Position numbers and translations under genes: made by a program. Below, one piece after another: positions 10,834-37,595 of a stretch of DNA of 37,595 nt (its first letter is position 1; each line of letters begins with the position of its first letter). The notes under the pieces were generated by a model. It worked only from the letters and a program-made list of their open reading frames with translations, was not told the origin of the DNA and made no database searches. The DNA is taken from the IMG/VR virus record IMGVR_UViG_3300045919_000046, positions 1-37,595 of that record; one strand, given 5' to 3'. This DNA is from a virus.

Positions 10834-11026
10834 TTTGTTTAATGAGAGATCGTTGTTTACAGAAGACGATTGGATTGATGAACTACACGACGCATATTTT
10901 GCAAACATGGATCAAGGTGTTAAGTGGCTGACGGAACAATACACTGAGAAGTGGGAGAAAGAAAATAAAATCCTTGCAGACACAATCAATCTTATTCTTA
11001 GACGTAGAAACCTCGACACACAATAA
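10826..11026 (+). CDS. Small hypothetical protein, TTG start
   Basis: A 66-residue acidic helical protein from the TTG at 10826, overlapping the previous stop by eight bases and the polymerase N-part by 53. It fills the only stretch (10834-10973) between two confident genes, and its sequence (DDWIDELHDAYF, TEQYTEKWEKENK) looks protein-like. A shorter form from the ATG at 10907 is possible. Function unknown. Confidence 0.5.
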   Translation: MNNLFNERSLFTEDDWIDELHDAYFANMDQGVKWLTEQYTEKWEKENKILADTINLILRRRNLDTQ

Positions 11027-12191
11027 GGGACACTATGCAGACCCTAGAAACATACTGGTCAGTTTTGCTACGTATTGTCAGCAGTCCGGTATTAACTTTA
11101 AATATTATCGTGATCCTGACTTCATTAGCTCTTTGCGTGCTGACGTGGAATCTGCCGATGTCGTGGTTGGCTTCAACATTAAGTTTGATCTTCATTGGTT
11201 ACTCCGTGAGGGAATTGAAATTAAATTGGACCAGCGAGTATGGGATTGTCAACTTGCCGAATTCATCTACTCAGGACAAACACTAGCCTATGACTCCCTC
11301 AATGCAGCGTTGGAACGCTATGGTCTACCACTTAAGCACGACGCCGTTGCTGAGTATTGGGACCAGGGAATTTCAACAGAGAACATCCCGATTGAAGTAT
11401 TGCAAGAGTACAACATTTGGGATGTCGTTCCTTCCACTACAGAACTATTTCGCATCCAACAGGAGTTGTTGAGTGATGAACAAAAGCAATTGGTTTGGCT
11501 CGAAGGTGAAGACCTTAAAACTCTCCTTGCTGCAGAGCATGCAGGAATGCTATTTGATGTTGCTGGAGCAAATGAAAAACTATCCAGGTACAACAACGAT
11601 TTGGCTACTATCGGTAGTAGCCTTGCTGCTTATCTTCCTGGGGCAATGCATGAGCTGGGTAGGGAGTACCCTACCTGTCAGTTCAATTGGGACTCTGGTG
11701 ACCACCTAAGTGCCTTTCTATACGGAGGTAAACTTACTTTCTCCTATGCGATATCTAACACAGCGGTCTATAAAAGTGGGCCGAATAAGGGCCAGTCGTA
11801 TGAGAGGAATAAGTGGCATGAAGCAACCGTGGCCTTTGATCAGCGATTTAGGCCGCTTGAGGGTACGGAGGTTGCGAAAACTAAAGCCAATCCTAACGCG
11901 GAGGTTCGTTTTTACCAAACCGATGGGCCCACGCTATCACAGCTATCAGCTCGTAAGACCGAACAAAAACATATATTGGGGCTACTGGCCGAACGGTCAG
12001 CTAAGGTTAAGGTCGTTGAAATGATTGCCAGCGTCTTGGCAAAGATGGAGGAGAAGTATTGGGAGAACAACCTTGTACATGCACAGTTTAACCAAAATGT
12101 TGCTGTGACAGGACGACTTAGTTCATCACAACCCAATTTGCAGAATACACCACCTGAACTGGATGAACTATTAGTGAGTAGATATGGATGA
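10974..12191 (+). CDS. Family A DNA polymerase, N-terminal part (3'-5' exonuclease and thumb)
   Basis: A 405-residue protein carrying the proofreading half of a Pol I-type polymerase. The exonuclease motifs are complete: LFLDVETST (Exo I, Asp10 and Glu12), GFNIKFDLHWL (Exo II, Asn68 and Asp72) and EYNIWD (Exo III, Tyr146 and Asp150). Near the end is TGRLSSSQPNLQNTP, the conserved segment just before the palm. The reading frame stops after LLVSRYG, before motif A; the catalytic half resumes in a different frame at 12338. The start is a TTG at 10974, the only start codon shortly before Exo I. The split is described separately below. Confidence 0.9.
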   Translation: MQTQSILFLDVETSTHNKGHYADPRNILVSFATYCQQSGINFKYYRDPDFISSLRADVESADVVVGFNIKFDLHWLLREGIEIKLDQRVWDCQLAEFIYSGQTLAYDSLNAALERYGLPLKHDAVAEYWDQGISTENIPIEVLQEYNIWDVVPSTTELFRIQQELLSDEQKQLVWLEGEDLKTLLAAEHAGMLFDVAGANEKLSRYNNDLATIGSSLAAYLPGAMHELGREYPTCQFNWDSGDHLSAFLYGGKLTFSYAISNTAVYKSGPNKGQSYERNKWHEATVAFDQRFRPLEGTEVAKTKANPNAEVRFYQTDGPTLSQLSARKTEQKHILGLLAERSAKVKVVEMIASVLAKMEEKYWENNLVHAQFNQNVAVTGRLSSSQPNLQNTPPELDELLVSRYG

Positions 12192-12348
12192 TAACCAACT
12201 AATAAAACAAATTTCCCAGATGAGTTCATGGGAACTTCTTGAATGGGTTCTTAGTAGCCCGACAGACCTTACAGATTCATATTATTTAAAGTTTCGCACT
12301 GCGATTATGAATCGTTATGAAGAGTTGAAGAAAATTCGTGCTGGTTAA
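12184..12348 (+). CDS. 54-aa protein interrupting the DNA polymerase gene
   Basis: A complete ORF from ATG 12184 to TAA 12346-12348, overlapping the polymerase N-part by eight bases and the C-part by 11, in the third reading frame. The product, with SWELLEWVLSSPTDLTDSYY in the centre, is an acidic helical mini-protein. It resembles the small phage protein at 16391 (shared LLE...STDL.D pattern), so it may belong to a family of short phage proteins. It has no HNH, GIY-YIG or LAGLIDADG motif and so is not a homing endonuclease. Function unknown. Confidence 0.6.
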   Translation: MDDNQLIKQISQMSSWELLEWVLSSPTDLTDSYYLKFRTAIMNRYEELKKIRAG

Positions 12349-13057
12349 CGCCGATGTGAAAGGTCTTGAACTGTTTGTCGCTGCCGACCTATCAGGCGAC
12401 GAGACAATGCGAGAAGAACTCAGAAACAAGGTGGATTTGCATGCTGCAAATCAGCTTCGCTTTAGACTACCTGATCGAGTTACGGCGAAACGTTTTGTCT
12501 TTAAGTTATTGTACGGAGCTTCCGCATATGGATATTTCACAGACGCAGACTTCATCGGAGTTGGGTACTCCCAACGACAATGGCAAGCAGTAATTGATGA
12601 GTTTTACGCCAAATATACAGGTATTGCTAAATGGCACATTGAAATCATTAAGCAATCTAAAAGAGATGGATACCTCTCAATACCCTCTGGTAGATATTAC
12701 AATTTCCCTGCAAGAAAGGACAAGTGGGGACGATGGGGATGGCATGAGCAAGCCATCAAGAATTACCCCGTACAAGGATTTGGAGCGGATATTGTCAAAC
12801 TGGCAAGAGTGGAATTCTTCAAGCGTTTTGTAGCGTCTGGGTTGCCTGGAGAATTTATTTGTACGGTACATGACTCACTTGTGGTTGACACACCGCAAGA
12901 AGTGTGCTATACTATAGGTAGGATGTTAAAAGAGTCGGTGGAGAGTACTCCCCTCCTGATGAAACAATGGTTCAACTACGATTTTAGCCTCCCCATGTTC
13001 TGTGAAGTTTCGGTTGGTTCGAACATCAGGGACATGAAAGAAATAAACTTTAATTAA
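12338..13057 (+). CDS. Family A DNA polymerase, C-terminal part (palm and fingers)
   Basis: A 239-residue protein with the polymerase active site. LVNADVKGLEL (2-12) is motif A with the catalytic Asp6; RVTAKRFVFKLLYG (47-60) is motif B, the fingers O-helix with Arg, Lys and the Tyr-Gly pair; TVHDSLVVD (176-184) is motif C with His178 and Asp179, where Ser replaces the more usual Glu. KNYPVQGFGADIVK (141-154) is the conserved Q-helix region. The first usable start is GTG 12338; a TGA at 12326-12328 closes the frame upstream. It needs the N-part in trans for proofreading, so the two chains probably associate. A strong promoter-like sequence lies inside this gene at 12885. Confidence 0.9.
   Translation: MLVNADVKGLELFVAADLSGDETMREELRNKVDLHAANQLRFRLPDRVTAKRFVFKLLYGASAYGYFTDADFIGVGYSQRQWQAVIDEFYAKYTGIAKWHIEIIKQSKRDGYLSIPSGRYYNFPARKDKWGRWGWHEQAIKNYPVQGFGADIVKLARVEFFKRFVASGLPGEFICTVHDSLVVDTPQEVCYTIGRMLKESVESTPLLMKQWFNYDFSLPMFCEVSVGSNIRDMKEINFN
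12885..12913 (+). promoter_or_regulatory. Probable sigma70 promoter inside the polymerase gene
   Basis: TTGACA (12885-12890) matches the -35 consensus exactly and TATACT (12908-12913) matches five of six -10 bases, with the optimal 17-base spacer. It lies about 150 bases before the SSB-like gene at 13067 and would give a leader of roughly that length. It coincides with codons after motif C, so coding constraint may explain part of it. Confidence 0.6.
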
Positions 13058-14200: not shown

Positions 14201-14895
14201 TCGCTCTAATTGATGCAGACAATGTAGCCATTGCGGCTGCATTCTCTGCCGAGGATCAACCCGAGGCAATTGCATGTGCTAGAGCGGGAGAGATGATACT
14301 CGGTATCTTGGCAGACTCCTCGGCAGACAAATACGAGTTGTGGCTCACAGGACCTAACAACTTCCGCTATAACATCTACCCAGAATACAAAGGGGACCGC
14401 ACTGATAAGAAACGTCCCAAGTGGGAAAAGCAAGTAAAGCAATATTTCCGGGATCAGTGGAATGCCAACACAACAGATGGCATTGAGGCTGATGACATGC
14501 TAGGTATTCGCCTCACGGAGGAGGGAAATAATGGAATTATGTGTCATTTGGACAAGGATATGAATTCCATTGCTGGCAATCACTTTAACTGGGAACTACG
14601 TCGAAAGGGAAATGTTGTTCGGGAGAAACGAAACTATTATGTCACGCCTGAAGAAGCGGATTATTTCTTCTTTTATCAACTACTTGTTGGCGACGGGACA
14701 GACTTCATCAAAGGAGCATCTGGGATCGGCCCTAAGAACGCGGCCCGGATTTTACAAGATTGTTACACCAATGCCGAACGTTTGGCTGCTGTACAAGACT
14801 ATTTCTCCTGTGAAGAAGAACTAGACATGACCGCCCAGTGTATCTACATCTGGAGAAAGCGAGAAGACAACTGGAAAAACATTCTAAAGAGTTAG
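14197..14895 (+). CDS. 5'-3' exonuclease (flap endonuclease family)
   Basis: A 232-residue PIN-like nuclease. The acidic metal ligands are visible in order: ALIDADN (Asp6, Asp8), DGIEADDMLG (Asp99, Asp100), and HLDKDMNSI (Asp119, Asp121). YKGDRTDKKRP is the arch/basic region, and GDGTDFIKGASGIGPKNAARIL (166-187 region) is the helix-3-turn-helix with the Gly-Ile-Gly loop that holds the DNA backbone. It would remove RNA primers and flaps, a job normally done by the exonuclease domain of cellular Pol I; here it is a separate gene like the T7 and T5 enzymes. The start is TTG 14197, overlapping the deaminase stop. Confidence 0.9.
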   Translation: MIALIDADNVAIAAAFSAEDQPEAIACARAGEMILGILADSSADKYELWLTGPNNFRYNIYPEYKGDRTDKKRPKWEKQVKQYFRDQWNANTTDGIEADDMLGIRLTEEGNNGIMCHLDKDMNSIAGNHFNWELRRKGNVVREKRNYYVTPEEADYFFFYQLLVGDGTDFIKGASGIGPKNAARILQDCYTNAERLAAVQDYFSCEEELDMTAQCIYIWRKREDNWKNILKS

Positions 14896-15251
14896 TCGAA
14901 GGATGGACAGAGGGGCGTGTACATGGATACATTGTGAACACTCTCCGATATGGTAGTAGGAAATGGCCCCCTAAGTTTCAAACACTTAACGAGGCTAAGA
15001 CTGAAAAGAAAATCTCTGTTAAGTCAGGACGGCTAGCACAGCACTTTCGTTGTGCCTCCTGCTCAGAGGAGTTCACCAGTAAAGACATTGAGGTCGATCA
15101 TATTAAGCCAGTTGTAGATCCAAAGGTGGGGTTTGTCGATTGGAACACATACATCGAACGAATGTTCTGTCCTAAAAGTAATTATCAAGTTTTGTGCACT
15201 ACGTGCCACAAAGCCAAAACAAAACAAGAAAAACAAAAAGGCAATAAATGA
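14838..15251 (+). CDS. HNH endonuclease
   Basis: A 137-residue HNH nuclease. A zinc site (CASC and CTTC) flanks the HNH core: EVDHIKPVVDP gives the first His pair, and CHKAKTK the last. The sequence KTEKKISVKSGRLAQHFRCA, then VGFVDWNTYIERMFC, is a pattern typical of free-standing phage HNH proteins. The start is a GTG at 14838 overlapping the exonuclease by 58 bases; no later start precedes the conserved Trp-Thr-Glu-Gly-Arg region. It could act as a homing endonuclease or in packaging or DNA processing. Confidence 0.85.
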   Translation: MYLHLEKARRQLEKHSKELVEGWTEGRVHGYIVNTLRYGSRKWPPKFQTLNEAKTEKKISVKSGRLAQHFRCASCSEEFTSKDIEVDHIKPVVDPKVGFVDWNTYIERMFCPKSNYQVLCTTCHKAKTKQEKQKGNK

Positions 15252-16190: not shown

Positions 16191-16404
16191 TGATGTTCAA
16201 CATGGTGGAAATCACTACAAACAATTCAAGGGCTTTGAGCCCTGGGATGTCATTACAGCGTGGGACCTAGGCTATTTGGAGGGCACTGCCCTCAAATACA
16301 TTGCCCGCTGGAAGCACAAGAATGGTGTGGAGGATTTACGTAAAGCACTACATTTCCTACAAAAGAAGATTGAAGTGGAAGAAAACAAAAATGAACAAGG
16401 TTGA
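16180..16404 (+). CDS. DUF3310 protein
   Basis: A 74-residue protein with the full DUF3310 signature: an opening DVQHGGNHYK, then FEPWDVITAWDLGYLEG, then LKYIARWKHKNGVEDLRKAL. The family is common in phages and often annotated as a nucleotide-kinase-like or MazG-adjacent protein, but no biochemical role is settled. Its place between the metallophosphoesterase and the methyltransferase, close to NrdJ, fits nucleotide metabolism. It overlaps the next small gene. Confidence 0.88.
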   Translation: MAANDVQHGGNHYKQFKGFEPWDVITAWDLGYLEGTALKYIARWKHKNGVEDLRKALHFLQKKIEVEENKNEQG

Positions 16405-16543
16405 GCTATTGGAAGAACTACGTAAACTGGATGAAATCACTCTGTTGGAACTACTCGAAATTAACAGTACAGACCTTGTGGATGCTTTCCTAGAAAAAAT
16501 CAATGACAAAGAAGAGTATATTCGTTCCAATTTACAGGGATAA
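16391..16543 (+). CDS. Small acidic phage protein, 50 aa
   Basis: Starts at ATG 16391 (MNKVELLEELRKLDEITLLE); the upstream extension of the frame shadows DUF3310. The pattern LLELLEI..STDLVDAF..KI...EYI is one I associate with small helical phage proteins that sit next to a basic partner gene, as here. It resembles the 54-residue protein that splits the polymerase. Function unknown. Confidence 0.72.
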   Translation: MNKVELLEELRKLDEITLLELLEINSTDLVDAFLEKINDKEEYIRSNLQG

Positions 16544-16685: not shown

Positions 16686-17172
16686 TGCCCTCAACAAGAA
16701 GCTTTGCTTTGAGAATGACAAAGAATGGGAAAATGTTGTCAGGCTTGACATTGATGAAGGATGCAAGCCAGATGTACTTTGGGACTTGAACGACAGGCCA
16801 CTTCCATTTGAAGACAACCAGTTTGACGAACTGCACGCCTATGACGTACTAGAGCACATTGGTAGGCAAGGAGATTGGCGTGGATTCTTTGCAGAGTTCA
16901 CAGAGTATTTCCGCATCATCAAGCCCAATGGTCACTTCTTCATCATTGTGCCCCGAGCCGCAGATGTGTGGGCTTGGGGTGATCCAGGACATACACGAGT
17001 GCTTCCTTTGGAAGTGTTTACATTCCTAGATCAAAATGCCTACAAGGAGGTTGGTGCAACTGCACGAACCGACTATCGTAGTGTGTGGCAAGGAAATTTT
17101 GAAACTATTTGGGCTAAGGAAGAGGGTGCTGCACTCCTTCTTATTTTAAAGGCAATTAAGGATGCAAATTAG
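16660..17172 (+). CDS. Class I SAM-dependent methyltransferase-like protein
   Basis: A 170-residue Rossmann-fold methyltransferase-like protein. MELLLGSGNALNKK is the glycine-rich SAM loop, VVRLDID holds the acidic residue that binds the ribose, and DLNDRPLPFEDNQFDELHAY with DVLEHIG is motif III/IV of small UbiE-like phage methyltransferases. No target-recognition domain is present and no DPPY-type motif is visible, so DNA base methylation is not supported; a small-molecule or cell-envelope substrate is equally possible. It overlaps the LAGLIDADG gene by 11 bases. Confidence 0.82.
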   Translation: MELLLGSGNALNKKLCFENDKEWENVVRLDIDEGCKPDVLWDLNDRPLPFEDNQFDELHAYDVLEHIGRQGDWRGFFAEFTEYFRIIKPNGHFFIIVPRAADVWAWGDPGHTRVLPLEVFTFLDQNAYKEVGATARTDYRSVWQGNFETIWAKEEGAALLLILKAIKDAN

Positions 17173-17512
17173 TCCAGAATATTTAGCGGGCTTTTGGGAT
17201 GGTGAAGGTTGTTTTTATATGGGACTACAAAAAGCAAAACATCCCGATAATCCAAAGTTGTATCCTAAAGCACAGGTGTTATTGTCTCAATCTGGTGATG
17301 ATGGTTTAAAGCTGCTTGAAGCCATACAAGCACAGTATAAAGGCTCTATTTACACACATCTTAAGCCTGGACAGCATAGAGCGAAGAAAACGGCATACAA
17401 AATTTGGTGGAATAAAGGTGAAGCAATTCAGCTCATTCATATTTTACTTCCGTACCTAATTCTAAAGAAAACTGAAGCGGAAACAGTTCTGCAATACTTG
17501 ACAAGGGAATAA
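17162..17512 (+). CDS. LAGLIDADG-type homing endonuclease
   Basis: A 116-residue protein opening with YLAGFWDGEGCFY (7-19), a clear LAGLIDADG motif whose Asp/Glu bind the catalytic metal. Only one motif is present, so it should act as a homodimer. It lies between the methyltransferase and nrdJ, ending exactly at the nrdJ start, in a slightly more AT-rich stretch. Free-standing endonucleases of this kind cut phage genomes that lack the gene, spreading themselves and neighbouring alleles; nrdJ or the adjacent junction is the likely target. Confidence 0.87.
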   Translation: MQISPEYLAGFWDGEGCFYMGLQKAKHPDNPKLYPKAQVLLSQSGDDGLKLLEAIQAQYKGSIYTHLKPGQHRAKKTAYKIWWNKGEAIQLIHILLPYLILKKTEAETVLQYLTRE

Positions 17513-19186
17513 ATGATTCGACAATATTTTAAGACACCATTTGCAGAACAGATTTTTCGTGCAAAATACAGCCAGGGCCCAAATGATGACTGGGGTGCTT
17601 TAGCCGAGAGAGTTGTTGATGATGTATGTGGTACACATCAAGGAAAAGGCCCAATGTTAATGTCAGATTCTGACAGAAAAGACCTGCTAGAGCACATTAA
17701 ATCATTTCGCTTCGTGCCAGGTGGCAGGTATCTTTATTATAGTGGGCGACCATATCATGCTTGGAATAACTGTTACCTTCTCCGTGCTGAAGAAGACACC
17801 CGAGAAGAGTGGAGCGCAGTAACATGGCGAGCAATGAGTTGTTTAATGACTGGCGGAGGTATTGGCGTTGATTACTCACGAATTAGACCAGCGGGTCGAC
17901 CCCTTTCTCGTACCGGCGGAATTGCTTCCGGACCTATCCCACTTATGGCAGCAATCAATGAAATTGGGCGTAATGTTATGCAGGGTGGATCAAGACGCTC
18001 TGCAATCTATGCTAGTCTCAATTGGCAACATGAGGACATTCCTGACTTCCTTAGAGTCAAAAATTGGGATGATGGTACAAAGCAACGAAAGCTAGATAAC
18101 TTTAATGCTTCTGCTCCACTGGACATGACCAATATTAGCGTCAACTATGATGACGCTGCTCTGAGGCAGACATGGAACAGTACTACAGGATATACCAATC
18201 ATCTAGAGGACAATCCCATATTCCTCCAGAATGTTCGTCAGGCAATGGAGACAGGTGAACCTGGGTTTAGCTTTAACTTTGGATTGAAACAGAATGAAAC
18301 CTTGCGAAACGCGTGTACAGAAGTTACATCGGAGGATGATTCTGACGTATGCAATCTTGGCAGTATCAATCTTGGCAATATCACGAGTTTGGAAGTATTC
18401 AAGAATGTCGTATCTCTCGCTTCCAAGTTCTTGGTATGTGGAACCTTACGAGCCGATCTTCCCTACGACAAAGTATATAAAGTTAGGGAAAAGAACCGTC
18501 GCCTTGGGCTTGGACTCATGGGAATTCACGAGTGGCTACTCCAACGAGGAAAGAAGTACGAAGTAGACGATGAACTACGCATATGGATGGAGGTTTACAG
18601 AAGTGAATCAGAACGAGCAGCCAATGAACATTGTGATCGGTTCTATATCAGCCGCCCTGTCGCGTATCGGGCAATTGCACCAACCGGCACAATTGGAATT
18701 CTTGCATCCACAACTACAGGAATTGAGCCGCTATTTGCGGTTGCTTACAAACGTCGCTTCCTCACTGAAGGAACGAAGTGGAAATATTCCTACGTAGTAG
18801 ATGCAACAGCCGACCGACTAATTAAAGAATATGGAATCACCCCGGACACCATTGATACCGCCTATAAGCTTGCAGGAGACTATGAGCGGCGTATCAAATT
18901 CCAAGCAGACATTCAAGACTTTGTTGACATGTCAATTTCAAGTACAATCAATCTCCCAGCTTGGGGAAGCAAAGGAAACAATGAAGGCAGCATTGGAGAA
19001 TTTGCAAAGGTACTTGCAAGCTATGCACCCCGTCTTCGAGGATTCACTTGTTATCCAGATGGAAGTCGAGGAGGTCAACCTATCACAGAGTGTGACTACA
19101 GCACAGCCATCCAGCACAAAGGAGCTGTGTACGAAGAACACGACGTGTGCGACATTACAGGGCATGGTGGCTCCTGCGGCGTTTAA
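17513..19186 (+). CDS. nrdJ: Adenosylcobalamin-dependent ribonucleotide reductase (class II)
   Basis: A 557-residue class II ribonucleotide reductase that converts ribonucleotides to deoxyribonucleotides without a separate radical-generating subunit, using coenzyme B12 from the host or medium. FVPGGR and NNCYLL (Cys87) mark the N-terminal redox cysteine; RNACTEV (265-271) holds catalytic Asn266, Cys268 and Glu270; VCNLGSINL (279-287) holds the second redox cysteine; APTGTIGILASTTTGIEPL (389-407) is the phosphate-binding loop. The C-terminus CDITGHGGSCGV carries the mobile Cys pair that re-reduces the active site. The length is compact but all key residues are present, so it should be active. 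Confidence 0.94.
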   Translation: MIRQYFKTPFAEQIFRAKYSQGPNDDWGALAERVVDDVCGTHQGKGPMLMSDSDRKDLLEHIKSFRFVPGGRYLYYSGRPYHAWNNCYLLRAEEDTREEWSAVTWRAMSCLMTGGGIGVDYSRIRPAGRPLSRTGGIASGPIPLMAAINEIGRNVMQGGSRRSAIYASLNWQHEDIPDFLRVKNWDDGTKQRKLDNFNASAPLDMTNISVNYDDAALRQTWNSTTGYTNHLEDNPIFLQNVRQAMETGEPGFSFNFGLKQNETLRNACTEVTSEDDSDVCNLGSINLGNITSLEVFKNVVSLASKFLVCGTLRADLPYDKVYKVREKNRRLGLGLMGIHEWLLQRGKKYEVDDELRIWMEVYRSESERAANEHCDRFYISRPVAYRAIAPTGTIGILASTTTGIEPLFAVAYKRRFLTEGTKWKYSYVVDATADRLIKEYGITPDTIDTAYKLAGDYERRIKFQADIQDFVDMSISSTINLPAWGSKGNNEGSIGEFAKVLASYAPRLRGFTCYPDGSRGGQPITECDYSTAIQHKGAVYEEHDVCDITGHGGSCGV

Positions 19187-31840: not shown

Positions 31841-33346
31841 TTAAACTCCATATACATTAACGTCCATCGTGGCACCAGCCATGAAGAACGGGTAGTTGTC
31901 GGCATACTCAAACCGGAAACTGATATTGCGAAACTTGCCAAGACGGAATGCACATGGAGAGCTACTGAACACATTAATAGTTCTTGTGCCTACAACACCT
32001 GTGGGTGACCAATCATCTACTGAGTAATATAACGTTAGGTTACTGGTTCCAGTAGACGCATGCATTGAGCAGTCAAGTGCAAGTCGATGCCCGATTTTCC
32101 AATTGAATGTGTCAAACAACATATTCTCCGTGGTATACCGGCATGTAAAATTACTTCCAAAGTCTTGATATACAGTGGGGGACATTACGGAAATGTAGTC
32201 TTGGTTTGCAACAGCCAAGTAGTTTGCACCGTTGTACATTCCCCAACTACCTTCAATGGCAAGTCCAGTGGCATCAGAACCTTTCCATTCATACCAAATA
32301 TGGTCATCCACTTCATACACCCAAGTCGTTTGGGTAGTCGGAACAACATAGAATGTGTGTCCATCAGACGAGATGGAGAAGCCATTCTTGGATAGGTTTA
32401 CGTTGGACTTGGAGTTGGACGTACTTGAGAATGTTTGTAGTGTTCTGTCTACAACGCTGTTTGAAATTCTGTCTACTTTAAAGCTGTTTACAGCATACAC
32501 AGACACGTTCTGATTGTGATCTTGTCCTACAAAGTACACAGTATCCCCAATCTGATGCCCGTTGGTTATGTACCCAACACCTCTGAATGGACTATCCTGC
32601 CGACTTAGCGGAGAAGATGGGGCAGTGTTCGCAGCATCCCAGAAGTATTCAATTGAGTTTGACCCTAAGCAAATAATGTAGTTCTTTACCTTGTATAGCT
32701 TTAGCGCGTAATCTGCGTTAATCTCAGCAGACACTACACCAGAGATATTCCAACTTGTGGGAGTGTCCAGATCACTGTTGTAGATGTCACCAGTGTTGTG
32801 CTTGATTAGAAACACATAACCATCTAGATACAAAGGACATGGCTCATGTGGTGTGGGCATATCAACGTCCACTACCTTAGTACAAGATACAGCTACATAG
32901 TCATCAATCCATAGGTCTGTGCCATCAGAGATGAGCACATAGCGTGTACCATTGCTTTTCAGGAATGTGCAAAAGCCAACAAGACCAGACGATGTTGATA
33001 AGGTGGTTACGGTTCTAACTGTTGTTCCAACATCTGGAGATACAGAGTAAACCTTTGTACCAACAACCCAATAGAAAGTGTTTTGGTTTACATCGTTAAA
33101 GTTGCCCCGAATGGTGTTAGAGCTAGTTACTTTAGTCAGGGAATAACTACTGGTAGTGATCCCAGGCCGCTTCTTTACTTGAGTAAACCTTTGCTTGTTT
33201 TCCTGTGAAATACGGTCGTAGTACATATTGATGATGTTAGCATCTCGCTGTACTGTCAAATCTCCTGAACGATAGGTAGACTCAGCGTTGAATTTTATAT
33301 CAACGGTTTTGTACGTATTGAATTCAGGAGAATTAGTTCGGGCCAT
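31841..33346 (-). CDS. Tail nozzle-like protein (P22 gp10 type)
   Basis: A 501-residue protein from ATG 33346 (MARTNSPEFN); the upstream 38 residues of the frame shadow the previous gene. NIINMYYDRISQENKQRFTQ and KKRPGITT are the opening segment seen in phage nozzle/packaged-DNA-stabilisation proteins. The rest is made of repeating four-strand blocks (VLISDGTDLWIDD, GYVFLIKHNTGD, YIICLGSNSIEYFWD, HTFYVVPTTQTTWVYEV), consistent with a beta-propeller of the P22 gp10 kind. It overlaps the adaptor gene by 14 bases, the expected order. It closes the distal end of the tail channel. Confidence 0.8.
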   Translation of the reverse strand: MARTNSPEFNTYKTVDIKFNAESTYRSGDLTVQRDANIINMYYDRISQENKQRFTQVKKRPGITTSSYSLTKVTSSNTIRGNFNDVNQNTFYWVVGTKVYSVSPDVGTTVRTVTTLSTSSGLVGFCTFLKSNGTRYVLISDGTDLWIDDYVAVSCTKVVDVDMPTPHEPCPLYLDGYVFLIKHNTGDIYNSDLDTPTSWNISGVVSAEINADYALKLYKVKNYIICLGSNSIEYFWDAANTAPSSPLSRQDSPFRGVGYITNGHQIGDTVYFVGQDHNQNVSVYAVNSFKVDRISNSVVDRTLQTFSSTSNSKSNVNLSKNGFSISSDGHTFYVVPTTQTTWVYEVDDHIWYEWKGSDATGLAIEGSWGMYNGANYLAVANQDYISVMSPTVYQDFGSNFTCRYTTENMLFDTFNWKIGHRLALDCSMHASTGTSNLTLYYSVDDWSPTGVVGTRTINVFSSSPCAFRLGKFRNISFRFEYADNYPFFMAGATMDVNVYGV

Positions 33347-34034
33347 ACCTATGTTCCATCTGGATAAACAAACTACCGTCTTCGTCCCCGAAGCCCTTAG
33401 CCATTGCCCAATACTCAGCAGCTTCGGCACGAAGTGCCTGTCTATCTGGCAGAGGGGCACCCCATTCAGGAGCTAAGATAGAAGCAAGCTTGTATGTAAG
33501 AGCGAGCGTCCAATATGCTGGGAAATCAAGGGTGTCTGTAGAAGACACCATGTTATCATATTCCTTCTGATAAATGATGTCAATCACTTTACTACTCACT
33601 GTCGTGGTATCTGATAACAGAGGCCACATAGATACTGTGTATCCTTGGATAATTGGCTGTGCTGTCCAGTGGACAGGAATACCGGGGCCTGACAATGTGG
33701 GAAGAAACTTGAAGTCATACAAACTCTTCTCACGTAAGGCGTATGATACACCTGACGTTGTATCCCTAATATACACAGCAGCAATCTTCATAGCATCTGT
33801 TATTGTGTATACTTGGCTAGTGGCCGAAGGTGTCTCGGACACCGTAGTACGCTTCCAAAGAGGCATACCATCTGTTACAGCTAGTTGAATTACTGCGTTG
33901 AGGTTCTCAGAGCCATCTGTAATTTGTGTTGTAGTTAAAGAGTTATCTTCACCAGGAATGCCAAGCTTTGAATAAGCCCGGGTAATAATTTCATTACGGG
34001 TAAGTTCCCACGCTGTTGATCCAGAAGTAGCCAT
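33333..34034 (-). CDS. Head-to-tail adaptor protein (P22 gp4-like)
   Basis: A 233-residue protein. ELTRNEIITRAYSKLGIPGE, followed by TTTQITDGSENLNAVIQLAV and DGMPLWKR, is the helical opening typical of podophage adaptor proteins (P22 gp4 and relatives) that join portal and nozzle. The C-terminal part contains AYWTLALTYKLASILAPEWG and a helical tail (RQALRAEAAEYWAMAKGFGD). A CTAAGGA ribosome binding site precedes the ATG. It lies directly upstream of the nozzle gene. Confidence 0.85.
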   Translation of the reverse strand: MATSGSTAWELTRNEIITRAYSKLGIPGEDNSLTTTQITDGSENLNAVIQLAVTDGMPLWKRTTVSETPSATSQVYTITDAMKIAAVYIRDTTSGVSYALREKSLYDFKFLPTLSGPGIPVHWTAQPIIQGYTVSMWPLLSDTTTVSSKVIDIIYQKEYDNMVSSTDTLDFPAYWTLALTYKLASILAPEWGAPLPDRQALRAEAAEYWAMAKGFGDEDGSLFIQMEHRYGPN

Positions 34035-34043
34035 GTATATTCC

Positions 34044-34391
34044 TTAGGTTGGGGTAGCATCACGCAGGCTAAGCAGGAAACTATACGTCTGTACCGTATT
34101 CCCCACAATCATACAATCAGCAGTACCCATGTCAGCATACGCTGATCGTGCCCAGATATAGCAGATGGTGAGGAATGTGTCATCATTCTGTTTGCGCACG
34201 TAAGGAACCGTCTGCCGGTCTTCAGGTACTCGTAGGAATTTCTGGGGATGATCCATCTCCCAGTCTTCTACACATACCATGAGGCCGTCCCAACGCTTCT
34301 TAATGTCTGTAGACTTAAATTTAAATCCGCAAACATCACAATGCACATTGTGAGCGCCATCAAGAAAATAATTTCTATTTTCATACGACAT
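34044..34391 (-). CDS. CxxC neck-type protein, 115 aa
   Basis: A 115-residue protein found just before adaptor genes in many podophages. It begins MSYENRNYFLDGAHNVHCDV; CDVCGFKFKSTDIKKRWDGL and VCVEDWEMDHPQKF contribute four Cys/His residues that could bind zinc. Its ribosome binding site (AAAGGA) and ATG lie inside the 3' end of the upstream HNH gene, with which it shares 11 bases. Its first 18 codons are paralleled in that HNH gene (see the finding). Probably a virion or neck component; not proven. Confidence 0.8.
   Translation of the reverse strand: MSYENRNYFLDGAHNVHCDVCGFKFKSTDIKKRWDGLMVCVEDWEMDHPQKFLRVPEDRQTVPYVRKQNDDTFLTICYIWARSAYADMGTADCMIVGNTVQTYSFLLSLRDATPT
34338..34391 (-). repeat. 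Duplicated N-terminal coding segment, copy in the neck-type gene
   Basis: The first 18 codons of the 115-residue gene. Compared with 34816-34869, 16 of 18 residues are identical yet 11 of those 16 codons differ at the DNA level. The DNA has diverged while the peptide is conserved, so it is not a fresh duplication. Confidence 0.75.
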
Positions 34392-34869
34392 ACAAATTCC
34401 TTTTGGCTAGATTTTCTCTTGCTGGTAAACATTGTAGATTATTTTCTACATGAAGTCCTGCAACAAGTTTTCCTTTTAAAGGAATAATATGATCCACATG
34501 ATATCCTTCCGGGCAGTTTAAATAAATTTCTTTAATCTTGTCTAAATTTGCCCAGGATGGTGTTTGATTTAACTTTCTCGCCCGATACGTGGCAGCTCTA
34601 AATCTATCGTAATCGAGATTGTTCTTTCTCCAATTTCTTGCCCAGGCCAGACACTTCGCATTGTTTCGCTGTCGATAAGCATCTGAAGACTTTTTACGTA
34701 TTGCGGGAGCAAGTTTGTTCCGGCGAGTGAGAACACATGCTTTACACTGTGCGCGTGGTTTTCCGTTACTGTGTATGTAATATTTATCAATAGTTTTGTC
34801 CTCACCACAACTTGAACAATGGACGTTCCATGCACCGTCTTTAAAATAGTTGCGGTTTTCGTATGACAC
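34381..34869 (-). CDS. HNH endonuclease with captured structural-gene N-terminus
   Basis: A 162-residue protein starting at GTG 34869, which directly follows the previous stop (TAAGTG). Residues 1-18, MSYENRNYFKDGAWNVHC, match the N-terminus of the next gene. After that it is a normal free-standing HNH protein: a zinc pair CSSC and CKAC, a long basic helical stretch (AWARNWRKNNLDYDRFRAAT), then the HNH core YHVDHIIPLKG and HVENNLQCLP. The stop overlaps the start of the 115-residue gene, whose ribosome binding site lies inside this ORF. It is a homing-type insertion in the virion module. Confidence 0.88.
   Translation of the reverse strand: MSYENRNYFKDGAWNVHCSSCGEDKTIDKYYIHSNGKPRAQCKACVLTRRNKLAPAIRKKSSDAYRQRNNAKCLAWARNWRKNNLDYDRFRAATYRARKLNQTPSWANLDKIKEIYLNCPEGYHVDHIIPLKGKLVAGLHVENNLQCLPARENLAKRNLYVV
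34816..34869 (-). repeat. Duplicated N-terminal coding segment, copy in the HNH gene
   Basis: Codons 1-18 of the HNH gene, paralogous to 34338-34391. It starts with GTG rather than ATG and keeps 16 of 18 residues with mostly different codons. The similarity ends at the first CxxC pair, where the endonuclease sequence takes over. Confidence 0.75.
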
Positions 34870-35154: not shown

Positions 35155-37595
35155 TCATGCTGCCAGCAGCGCCATGTTGTTCGGGCCACGCGCATACAGC
35201 CCGGCCCCACGAACTGCGCTGCCGAACGTGATCGTTGCGTCGCCAGTGCCAGTGACCTTGGTCAGCGTGCCGGAAGCCAGCGGCGCCCCCGAACCAGAGC
35301 ACACCACCGTCCCAACCCGCGAGCCTGCTGTGCCCGTTAGCTGGGCGCTGACCACCGTGTAGGTGATGGCGTTGTTGGTGAAGGTCGCGCCGGGAGTCGG
35401 GTCGGTAGTGACGGCCGAGACGTTGAACACCGTGGTGTTGGCGTTGGTCTGCTGAATGAGGCTATTGGCCGCAACGGCAATTTGCAGGTCGGTGGAAGAC
35501 GGGGCCAGGTCGGCATACAGATCCAGGCAACTGCCGATCAGGTTGAGCGTAATGCCGGTGTTGCCGCCGATGGGACGAACAACGCTGTTGTTGCCGCTGG
35601 TGCCCGTGTTGTCGCCCGAGGTTCGGACGTTGATTGCGCAGCCTGTGGTGACCTGAGAAGCGTTCGGCGTAATGAGCGACTGCGCAGCCTGGAAGCGGTT
35701 CCCCTTGAGCCAGAGGTTCCATGTCGTGGTGTTGAAGCACGCGCCTTGCGACAGGTTGAAGGTGGTGTTCTGCAGATCGCAGTCGGTCATCTGCAGGTCC
35801 ATGTTGGCGCTGGCCACTGTGGATCCGAAGATGCTGTACAGGTCCAGCGTGCAGCGGGTCATGCGGAGCATGGTCGTGCCGCCGCTACTCGCGCCCCGGC
35901 CAATCGACGCATTGCGTGCCGCGCCGTTGTACGAGAAAGCCACATCGAGGTCGGCCAGATGGCATCGCTTGATGAGCGAGTTGGTGACGCTGTGCAGGAA
36001 GAAGGACCACCCGAACGACGTGCTTGTGTACGTGAAGGTAAAGCCCGAGCCGGCCCCGGTCACAAAGCTCGTGCCAACGGTACCTGAGGTCAGCCCGTTG
36101 TTGCCCTTGTAGGAACCCGGCTCGATGATGGCGAACGTCAGGATTGCGCCGCTGCTTACCGTCAGCACCTTGATCCGCATCGGGCGATCCCAGACAGTGC
36201 CCGTGGCCGGCTGGACGATATCGCCAATCGCGTATCCAGTACCTCCCGAGACGAGGACCAGATTCTGGTAGGTCAACAGCCCCTGAATCTTTCCACCGAG
36301 GATCTGGAAATCATCGAGCGTGGTGTTGTTGTTGATGTTGATGAGGCGCGGAGCACCCGCCATGTTCAGGGAATCTAGGGTCCAGTTGGCGTTCTTGACC
36401 GTGATCTGTCCGATGGTCAGCGGGGTCGAGCCAGTCGCGTTGCCACCCAGGGACGCCAGAAACGCGCGCAGACCCAAAGCTGGGCCGACCTTGGACGGCT
36501 TGATGTTGAAGTTGTCGACGCACACGCCTTCCCAGCGCAGCCCGCTGCTGGGCGTCGTGCTGGTGTAGTGCTTGAATAGCGCATCGGGCGGCGTGGCCGC
36601 GCTGCCGTTGTCCTCGTAGTAGAGGTTGCCGATGCTGATCAATCCGACGTTGCCGCCAGCCAGGCCCGCGGCGGTGGTGATGTTGTCGGTGCAGACGTGG
36701 AAGATCGCGCCGCCCGCTGCGTTGCGGATGTGCATGTTGTTGAAGCGGATGCCATCGATGCGGCGCACCAGCTTCGTATCGTTCAGGTCGCCAGTGGCGA
36801 AGATACCCACGCCACGAGGCGACGCGCGCTCGCCGAAGAAGTGGTCCACCTCGCAGCCCACGATGTCACCCGAAGCCATCGTGCCGTCGCTGTCCTGGGC
36901 GCCGTTGCTCACGCCAGCGTTGTTGCTGACGTTCTGAAGGATGATGGCGTCCTCGCCGCCTTCGTCGTACAGCGTGCCGATCTTGATGTCACGCGTCGGG
37001 CCGAAGAAGCAGACGCCTGCGCCCACCATTTTTTTGCTGATGACCGGGCACCGTGGGCGGTATGCGTTCCAGAAGCAGGCCATCTTGCCAAAGCCGCCGC
37101 CGCTGTAGTCGCGGAGGGTCAGTTCCGCATCGACCACCTTGTTGAACATGAAGGTGGCACGCTCACCCTGGCCCGGGTTCGCGTTCGTGATGCTGCCTGG
37201 CACGCTGCCGCTGACCCGGCCATAGACATTGACGCTGAAGTTGCCGTCCGCCTTGTATGCAATGACCGTGTCGTTGGCGTTGATGCTGATGCCGTCGAGT
37301 TCGGTCTTCCACACGCGAAGGGTGAACTGGGTCGCGGCGTTCGGCACGTCCACCGCTTCCACGCGGTAGCCGTTGTCCCATCCGAACTGCGTATCACCTC
37401 GCACGATCACCCAGTCGTTCACGTCAATCGCCAGCGTGCCACTGCTGAGCGTGAAGGTCACCAGCTTGAATTCCGCTTCGGTCAGTCCACCGACAGACCA
37501 GGAGCCGACGATGGCCTTGTTGAGAATGAACGACTTGTTACTGATGAACGCGCTGTAGGTCGTGCCCGGCGCCGGGAAGAAGTTGACGCCTTCGG
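35155..37595 (-). CDS. GC-rich tailspike-like protein, 5' part beyond the window
   Basis: The frame is open to the window edge, so the 5' end is missing; the GTG at 37461 is only an internal codon. The visible part exceeds 800 residues and ends GLYARGPNNMALLAA. It is strand-rich with repeated Asn/Thr/Gly rungs (IDGIRFNNMHIRNAAGG, LTIGQITVKNANWTLDS, MRMTRCTLDLYSIFG-like), as in parallel beta-helix tailspikes; residues near the start (SFILNKAIVGSWSVGG) look like a carbohydrate-binding or linker domain. Base composition differs sharply: 39 of 60 G+C at 35221-35280 versus 25 of 60 at 32881-32940. It is probably a host-range gene taken from a phage of a high-GC host. Confidence 0.82.
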   Translation of the reverse strand, partial: EGVNFFPAPGTTYSAFISNKSFILNKAIVGSWSVGGLTEAEFKLVTFTLSSGTLAIDVNDWVIVRGDTQFGWDNGYRVEAVDVPNAATQFTLRVWKTELDGISINANDTVIAYKADGNFSVNVYGRVSGSVPGSITNANPGQGERATFMFNKVVDAELTLRDYSGGGFGKMACFWNAYRPRCPVISKKMVGAGVCFFGPTRDIKIGTLYDEGGEDAIILQNVSNNAGVSNGAQDSDGTMASGDIVGCEVDHFFGERASPRGVGIFATGDLNDTKLVRRIDGIRFNNMHIRNAAGGAIFHVCTDNITTAAGLAGGNVGLISIGNLYYEDNGSAATPPDALFKHYTSTTPSSGLRWEGVCVDNFNIKPSKVGPALGLRAFLASLGGNATGSTPLTIGQITVKNANWTLDSLNMAGAPRLININNNTTLDDFQILGGKIQGLLTYQNLVLVSGGTGYAIGDIVQPATGTVWDRPMRIKVLTVSSGAILTFAIIEPGSYKGNNGLTSGTVGTSFVTGAGSGFTFTYTSTSFGWSFFLHSVTNSLIKRCHLADLDVAFSYNGAARNASIGRGASSGGTTMLRMTRCTLDLYSIFGSTVASANMDLQMTDCDLQNTTFNLSQGACFNTTTWNLWLKGNRFQAAQSLITPNASQVTTGCAINVRTSGDNTGTSGNNSVVRPIGGNTGITLNLIGSCLDLYADLAPSSTDLQIAVAANSLIQQTNANTTVFNVSAVTTDPTPGATFTNNAITYTVVSAQLTGTAGSRVGTVVCSGSGAPLASGTLTKVTGTGDATITFGSAVRGAGLYARGPNNMALLAA

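Follow-up and report, generated by a model that had tools for sequence, protein, structure and literature searches.

How does an endonuclease gene come to begin with the N terminus of its neighbor, and how does that neighbor come to be complete? This question is raised by an HNH endonuclease ORF on the minus strand of IMG/VR virus record IMGVR_UViG_3300045919_000046, analyzed here over a stretch of 37,595 nt (the window). The gene immediately downstream, called gene 2 here, and the other features of the locus are as follows.

33333..34034, minus strand: tail-adaptor-like gene, found directly after gene 2 in relatives
34044..34391, minus strand: gene 2, encoding a 115-aa zinc-knuckle phage protein (CxxCG...RWDG..VC..DWE..HPQ)
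34308..34391, minus strand: gene 2 codons 1-28, the putative replacement 5' end brought with the HNH gene (GC3 0.25 versus 0.53 in the rest)
34381..34391, minus strand: overlap of the HNH stop and the gene 2 start, 11 nt
34398..34404, minus strand: AAAAGGA, in the HNH frame, a probable ribosome-binding site for gene 2
34381..34869, minus strand: HNH endonuclease ORF, 162 aa with a GTG start, PHROG 1035 "endonuclease VII"-like, with a leader apparently derived from gene 2
34477..34503, minus strand: HNH catalytic motif YHVDHIIPL, containing residues invariant in homologs
34804..34818, minus strand: left junction, zinc-knuckle codons C18-x-x-C21-G22, found in both protein families
34816..34869, minus strand: leader, 18 codons homologous to gene 2 codons 1-18, the putative displaced native 5' end, matching HNH-free relatives in position and residues
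34870..35124, minus strand: gene for an 84-aa membrane/coiled-coil protein, found directly before gene 2 in HNH-free relatives

The duplicated N terminus

Pairwise alignment within the window shows the N termini of the HNH protein and the gene 2 product to be identical at 16 of 18 residues, with the common pattern MSYENRNYF[K/L]DGA[W/H]NVHC, and different codons are used at 11 of the 16 conserved residues (GTG/ATG counted). This duplicated start was the central observation of the original prediction and was confirmed. In the corresponding 54-nt stretch 36 nt are identical (67% nt versus 89% aa identity), and downstream of it identity drops to 10 of 36 nt. A match of at least 16 of 18 residues has a probability of ~2e-18 by chance, and BLAST inside the record recovered it with an E value of 7e-8. 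The match had been described as stopping at the CxxC pair; it does end at the zinc knuckle, but not before it, since C21 and G22 are also identical and identity extends through CxxCG. The HNH stop lies inside the first codons of gene 2 (ATGTCGTATGA), and the AAAAGGA located 6 nt 5' of the gene 2 ATG is likely, from its sequence and position, to be the ribosome-binding site of gene 2; the overlap and the placement of this site within the HNH frame both agree with what had been predicted. Overlap of the stop with the next gene's start is ordinary in this HNH family, occurring in 29 of 51 members.

The HNH ORF matches the PHROG 1035 profile (E 8e-14), retains an intact HVDH...N...N motif and carries V125, D126, H127, P130, L131, N144 and N153, which are invariant in an alignment of about 30 homologs; cutting and homing activity are predicted for the protein. 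It resembles other phage HNH genes of PHROG 1035 and PHROG 26577 in combining a zinc ribbon with a HVDHI-PL...GLH...NLQ...N core, but those have their own N terminus or a longer N-terminal domain, and a neighbor's N terminus was found in none of those screened. In the structural model of the HNH protein, residues 1-6 are disordered and strands at residues 13-17, 24-26, 30-32 and 38-42 form the zinc ribbon. The gene 2 model has strands at 15-17, 24-26, 30-32 and 38-40, the same zinc-ribbon start pattern, so that in these models a join at CxxCG would exchange the first strand of one zinc ribbon for that of another.

The gene 2 family is widespread in phages, and at least 108 distinct members bearing the CxxCG...RWDG..VC..DWE..HPQ motif were fetched. 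C18, C21, W34, C40 and E45 are invariant in the 46-47 members aligned, residues 1-11 are variable, and conservation begins at G12-x-W-N. Solved-structure and fold searches with gene 2 returned nothing beyond weak zinc-ribbon matches; its motif had one match in GTDB genomes, and the HNH protein had no match among 385 GTDB genomes. Gene 2 had been described as a virion structural gene, which is not established: it belongs to an uncharacterized zinc-knuckle family whose members adjoin tail-adaptor genes.

Relatives lacking the HNH gene, and the probable native 5' end

The original prediction held that an endonuclease cassette had been inserted into gene 2, re-creating an intact copy downstream, and proposed a comparison with HNH-free relatives. 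These relatives support it, with the insertion at the gene's 5' end. Their gene order is a 77-84 aa gene followed by gene 2 and then, in most, by a tail adaptor (48-63% identity), with no HNH gene between the 84-aa homolog and gene 2 in L216, L217, L222, L223, L224, L225, L185, L218 and L219. In L216, L217, L222 and L223 the 84-aa homolog is 44% identical to the window gene, gene 2 comes one base after it, and the tail-adaptor homolog following gene 2 is 55-56% identical. Gene 2 starts 1 nt past the upstream TAA in L216, L217 and L223, and overlaps the 84-aa gene in L224, L225, L185, L218 and L219. In the window it is the HNH leader that starts 0 nt past the stop codon of the 84-aa gene, at the position of the gene 2 start in the HNH-free relatives, and no differing start was found among them. 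Across the full 52.6-kb record from which L185 comes, the HNH protein matches at the gene 2 N terminus only. Comparison with otherwise syntenic relatives gives both an occupied and an empty state of the site, as sought for a homing endonuclease. HNH homologs elsewhere carrying the same leader would have spoken against the insertion; none was present among about 110 HNH ORFs screened. Two further loci bear on the site itself: an HNH ORF of the same family, without the leader, lies directly upstream of gene 2 at L237:3745-4344, and another small HNH ORF lies directly upstream of a gene 2 homolog at L112:5607-5870, so HNH genes may have inserted repeatedly at the start of gene 2.

The two copies differ at two residues, K10 and W14 in the leader and L10 and H14 in gene 2, and the closest alignable relatives, L225 (MSYINNNYFKRGSWNVIC) and L185 (MSYASNNYFKHGSWNIIC), have K10 and W14 as in the leader. 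The leader is 72% (aa) and 65% (nt) identical to L225, versus 61% and 52% for the 5' end of gene 2. The leader has the look of the original, resident gene 2 start. A GC3 change-point search covering the HNH body and gene 2 placed the best single break within gene 2, at its codon 28, and not where the two genes meet (permutation p 0.0055), with GC3 of 0.28 before and 0.53 after it; when gene 2 was tested by itself the change point was not significant (p 0.13). A 5'-low GC3 gap like the 0.28 of the window gene is absent in 108 gene 2 family members, in which the largest is 0.215. As the break falls inside gene 2, its first ~28 codons look like DNA of the HNH element. Both the residue and the GC3 data would fit a leader of native origin and a gene 2 start that was imported, although with a repeat of 54 nt this polarity rests on few sites, and when synonymous sites alone are counted several relatives fail to favor the leader over the gene 2 5' end. 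IMG/VR scans with the leader and gene 2 5'-end patterns yielded chance or distant family matches only, and no donor phage combining the HNH gene with this 5' end of gene 2.

Proposed origin of the shared N terminus

The arrangement is probably best explained by insertion of an HNH element at the 5' end of gene 2, carrying a replacement end with it and leaving the displaced end fused to the HNH protein. A mobile HNH gene would have entered gene 2 at about codons 18-22, bringing with it a substitute 5' end acquired from a related phage. The native end that it displaced would have remained upstream, in frame, to become the start of the HNH protein, which would use the native start site just past the 84-aa gene, and the replacement end would have restored a full gene 2 with its ribosome-binding site in the 3' end of the HNH gene. 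A likely route would be breakage of a gene 2 copy that lacked the HNH gene, followed by repair on an HNH-bearing donor template, the co-converted tract extending to about gene 2 codon 28. Cutting activity, the target site, the donor phage and an immunity of the divergent replacement end to cutting are presumed parts of this scheme.

A different order of events is conceivable though unlikely, in which the HNH gene first sat between the 84-aa gene and gene 2, as it does in L237, and later acquired the gene 2 N terminus by recombination at CxxCG, the two copies then diverging in place. The leaderless HNH gene of L237, the small HNH gene at the gene 2 start in L112 and the shared opening strands of the two folds are all in keeping with such a swap. 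Divergence in place, however, would require selection to hold 16 of 18 residues in a nuclease leader through codon changes at 11 of 16 positions, and family pairs this divergent in codons share a median of 0.33 of these residues (90th percentile 0.5); the native position of the leader and the GC3 break would also go unexplained. The codon differences were originally attributed to recoding of the DNA so that the target was no longer recognized. Active recoding of the two 5' ends under selection, avoiding either HNH cutting or deletion of the cassette by recombination, seems improbable to us. In its favor, codon identity is at about the saturation level (5 of 16), direct repeats would favor deletion, and the insert in T4 gene 60 is thought to protect against a local endonuclease (PMC5009743). 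Ordinary alleles nonetheless show the same pattern: 21 of 143 gene 2 family pairs with at least 85% N-terminal identity differ at 60% or more of their identical-residue codons, so two natural alleles from different phages suffice and active change is unnecessary. Protection from self-cutting is a possible effect of the divergence.

Retention of amino acids despite the codon differences could also suggest that the leader is a functional tag sending the nuclease to the site of the gene 2 protein, such as the virion neck, and delivery of this kind had been proposed. This proposal found no support and we regard it as very unlikely: residues 1-11 differ from one gene 2 family member to another, the HNH model shows disorder at residues 1-6 and has the rest (13-17) as the first zinc-ribbon strand, and gene 2 is not an established virion protein. 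An assembly artifact or chance similarity is least credible of all. The record is a metagenomic contig whose far end (35155-37593) is of very different composition, yet the probability of the match is ~2e-18, the frame is open, the flanks are syntenic with relatives, and the two copies differ in codons, which a mis-joined repeat cannot produce.

A second locus, known systems and other features of the contig

Termini shared with neighboring genes were screened for by pairwise score in 85-99 HNH ORFs, and in 12 HNH loci of phage records. The window ranked first and L168 second; the next-scoring entries, L107 and L194, were judged spurious regex matches and the others noise, and none of the 12 phage-record loci shared an end with a neighbor. 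At L168:390-1737 (IMGVR_UViG_3300027896_000623), an HNH gene of the same family as that in the window overlaps the 3' terminus of another gene, itself upstream of the gene for the major capsid protein. The HNH C terminus, KEQYVSDYSWD, is a second copy of the C terminus of this overlapped gene. In the HNH-free relative MW202796.1, where the next gene is homologous (55% identity), the gene ends in KEQYVAEYSWD. The HNH tail matches this end at 10 of 12 positions (30/36 nt), versus 8 of 12 (25/36 nt) for L168's own gene end, KEDYVRDYDWD. As the tail is nearer to the relative than the current gene end is, the most fitting reading is that it is the original gene end, displaced; L168 would then be a mirror image of the window with C-terminal polarity. 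The tail is 11 residues long, and of about 110 HNH ORFs only L168 provides a second case.

Gene hybrids formed by mobile ORFs (mORFs) are known in fungal mitochondria, in atp6 of Allomyces macrogynus and in atp6, atp9, cox2 and nad3 of Glomus (PMC3630166). There an endonuclease ORF stands between a displaced native end and an inserted foreign copy (PMC3630166), the arrangement proposed here for the two phage loci. The ends are similar in protein and divergent in DNA, with 63.5% nt and 91% aa identity between native and inserted C termini of Glomus atp6 (PMC3630166), and the ORF can share the reading frame of the gene. A second copy of one host-gene end beyond the endonuclease ORF, as expected of such hybrids, was found in both phage cases, N-terminal in the window and C-terminal in L168. 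The fungal cases reported differ from the window in being C-terminal and mitochondrial, with the one named type being LAGLIDADG, whereas the window is N-terminal, HNH and phage; L168 shares the fungal polarity, but in a phage. Among phages, free-standing T4-type endonucleases split genes, as mobE does in Aeh1 nrdA and mobA in T4 topoisomerase 39/60 (PMC2988022). The window locus is like these in having a free-standing HNH gene in a coding sequence, with neighbor overlap and possible translational coupling, but T4-type insertions leave the gene in two pieces and gene 2 is whole again, presumably via a replacement end. The portions consulted of a survey of phage homing endonuclease genes (HEGs) report domain swapping and HEGs that lie inside or close to essential genes; they contain no description of replaced gene ends (PMC10448857). 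Targeted literature searches also returned no phage case, which is not proof of absence.

We tentatively suggest that this HNH family consists of gene-end-swapping mobile elements, which would home to the 5' or 3' ends of structural-region genes and replace that end, the old end becoming fused to the nuclease. If true, such elements would both move themselves and reshape virion-region proteins. The insertion proposed for the window would itself bring a mode of endonuclease mobility from fungal mitochondria to phages, in an N-terminal form, and show how a selfish gene may enter coding sequence without an intron, an intein or gene loss. Some phage gene ends are then predicted to have been imported by adjoining nucleases. 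With two loci of opposite polarity, the suggestion is testable by screening HNH genes for ends shared with their neighbors.

Other features of the contig were also recorded. An 812-aa spike-like ORF (35155-37593, minus strand), open at the contig end, has GC of 0.62 and GC3 of 0.83, versus 0.38-0.52 and 0.26-0.46 for the remaining late genes, and had no tblastn match in phage records; it may be an imported receptor-binding gene or a chimeric contig end. Family A DNA polymerase is encoded at 10974-13057 (plus strand) in two ORFs (10974-12191 and 12338-13057), split by a 54-aa ORF (about 12186-12350) that overlaps both pieces; BLAST matched this small ORF to a tiny one at about 16394-16543 (E 5e-5). 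The split region gave no Rfam intron match; polA may contain a small cassette-like ORF or may be a fragmented gene. One more HNH endonuclease ORF (PF01844, E 8e-7) lies at 14838-15251 (plus strand), and a LAGLIDADG endonuclease ORF (Pfam E 1e-6) is located at 17162-17512 (plus strand), its stop directly abutting the start of a ribonucleotide reductase gene (17513-19186).
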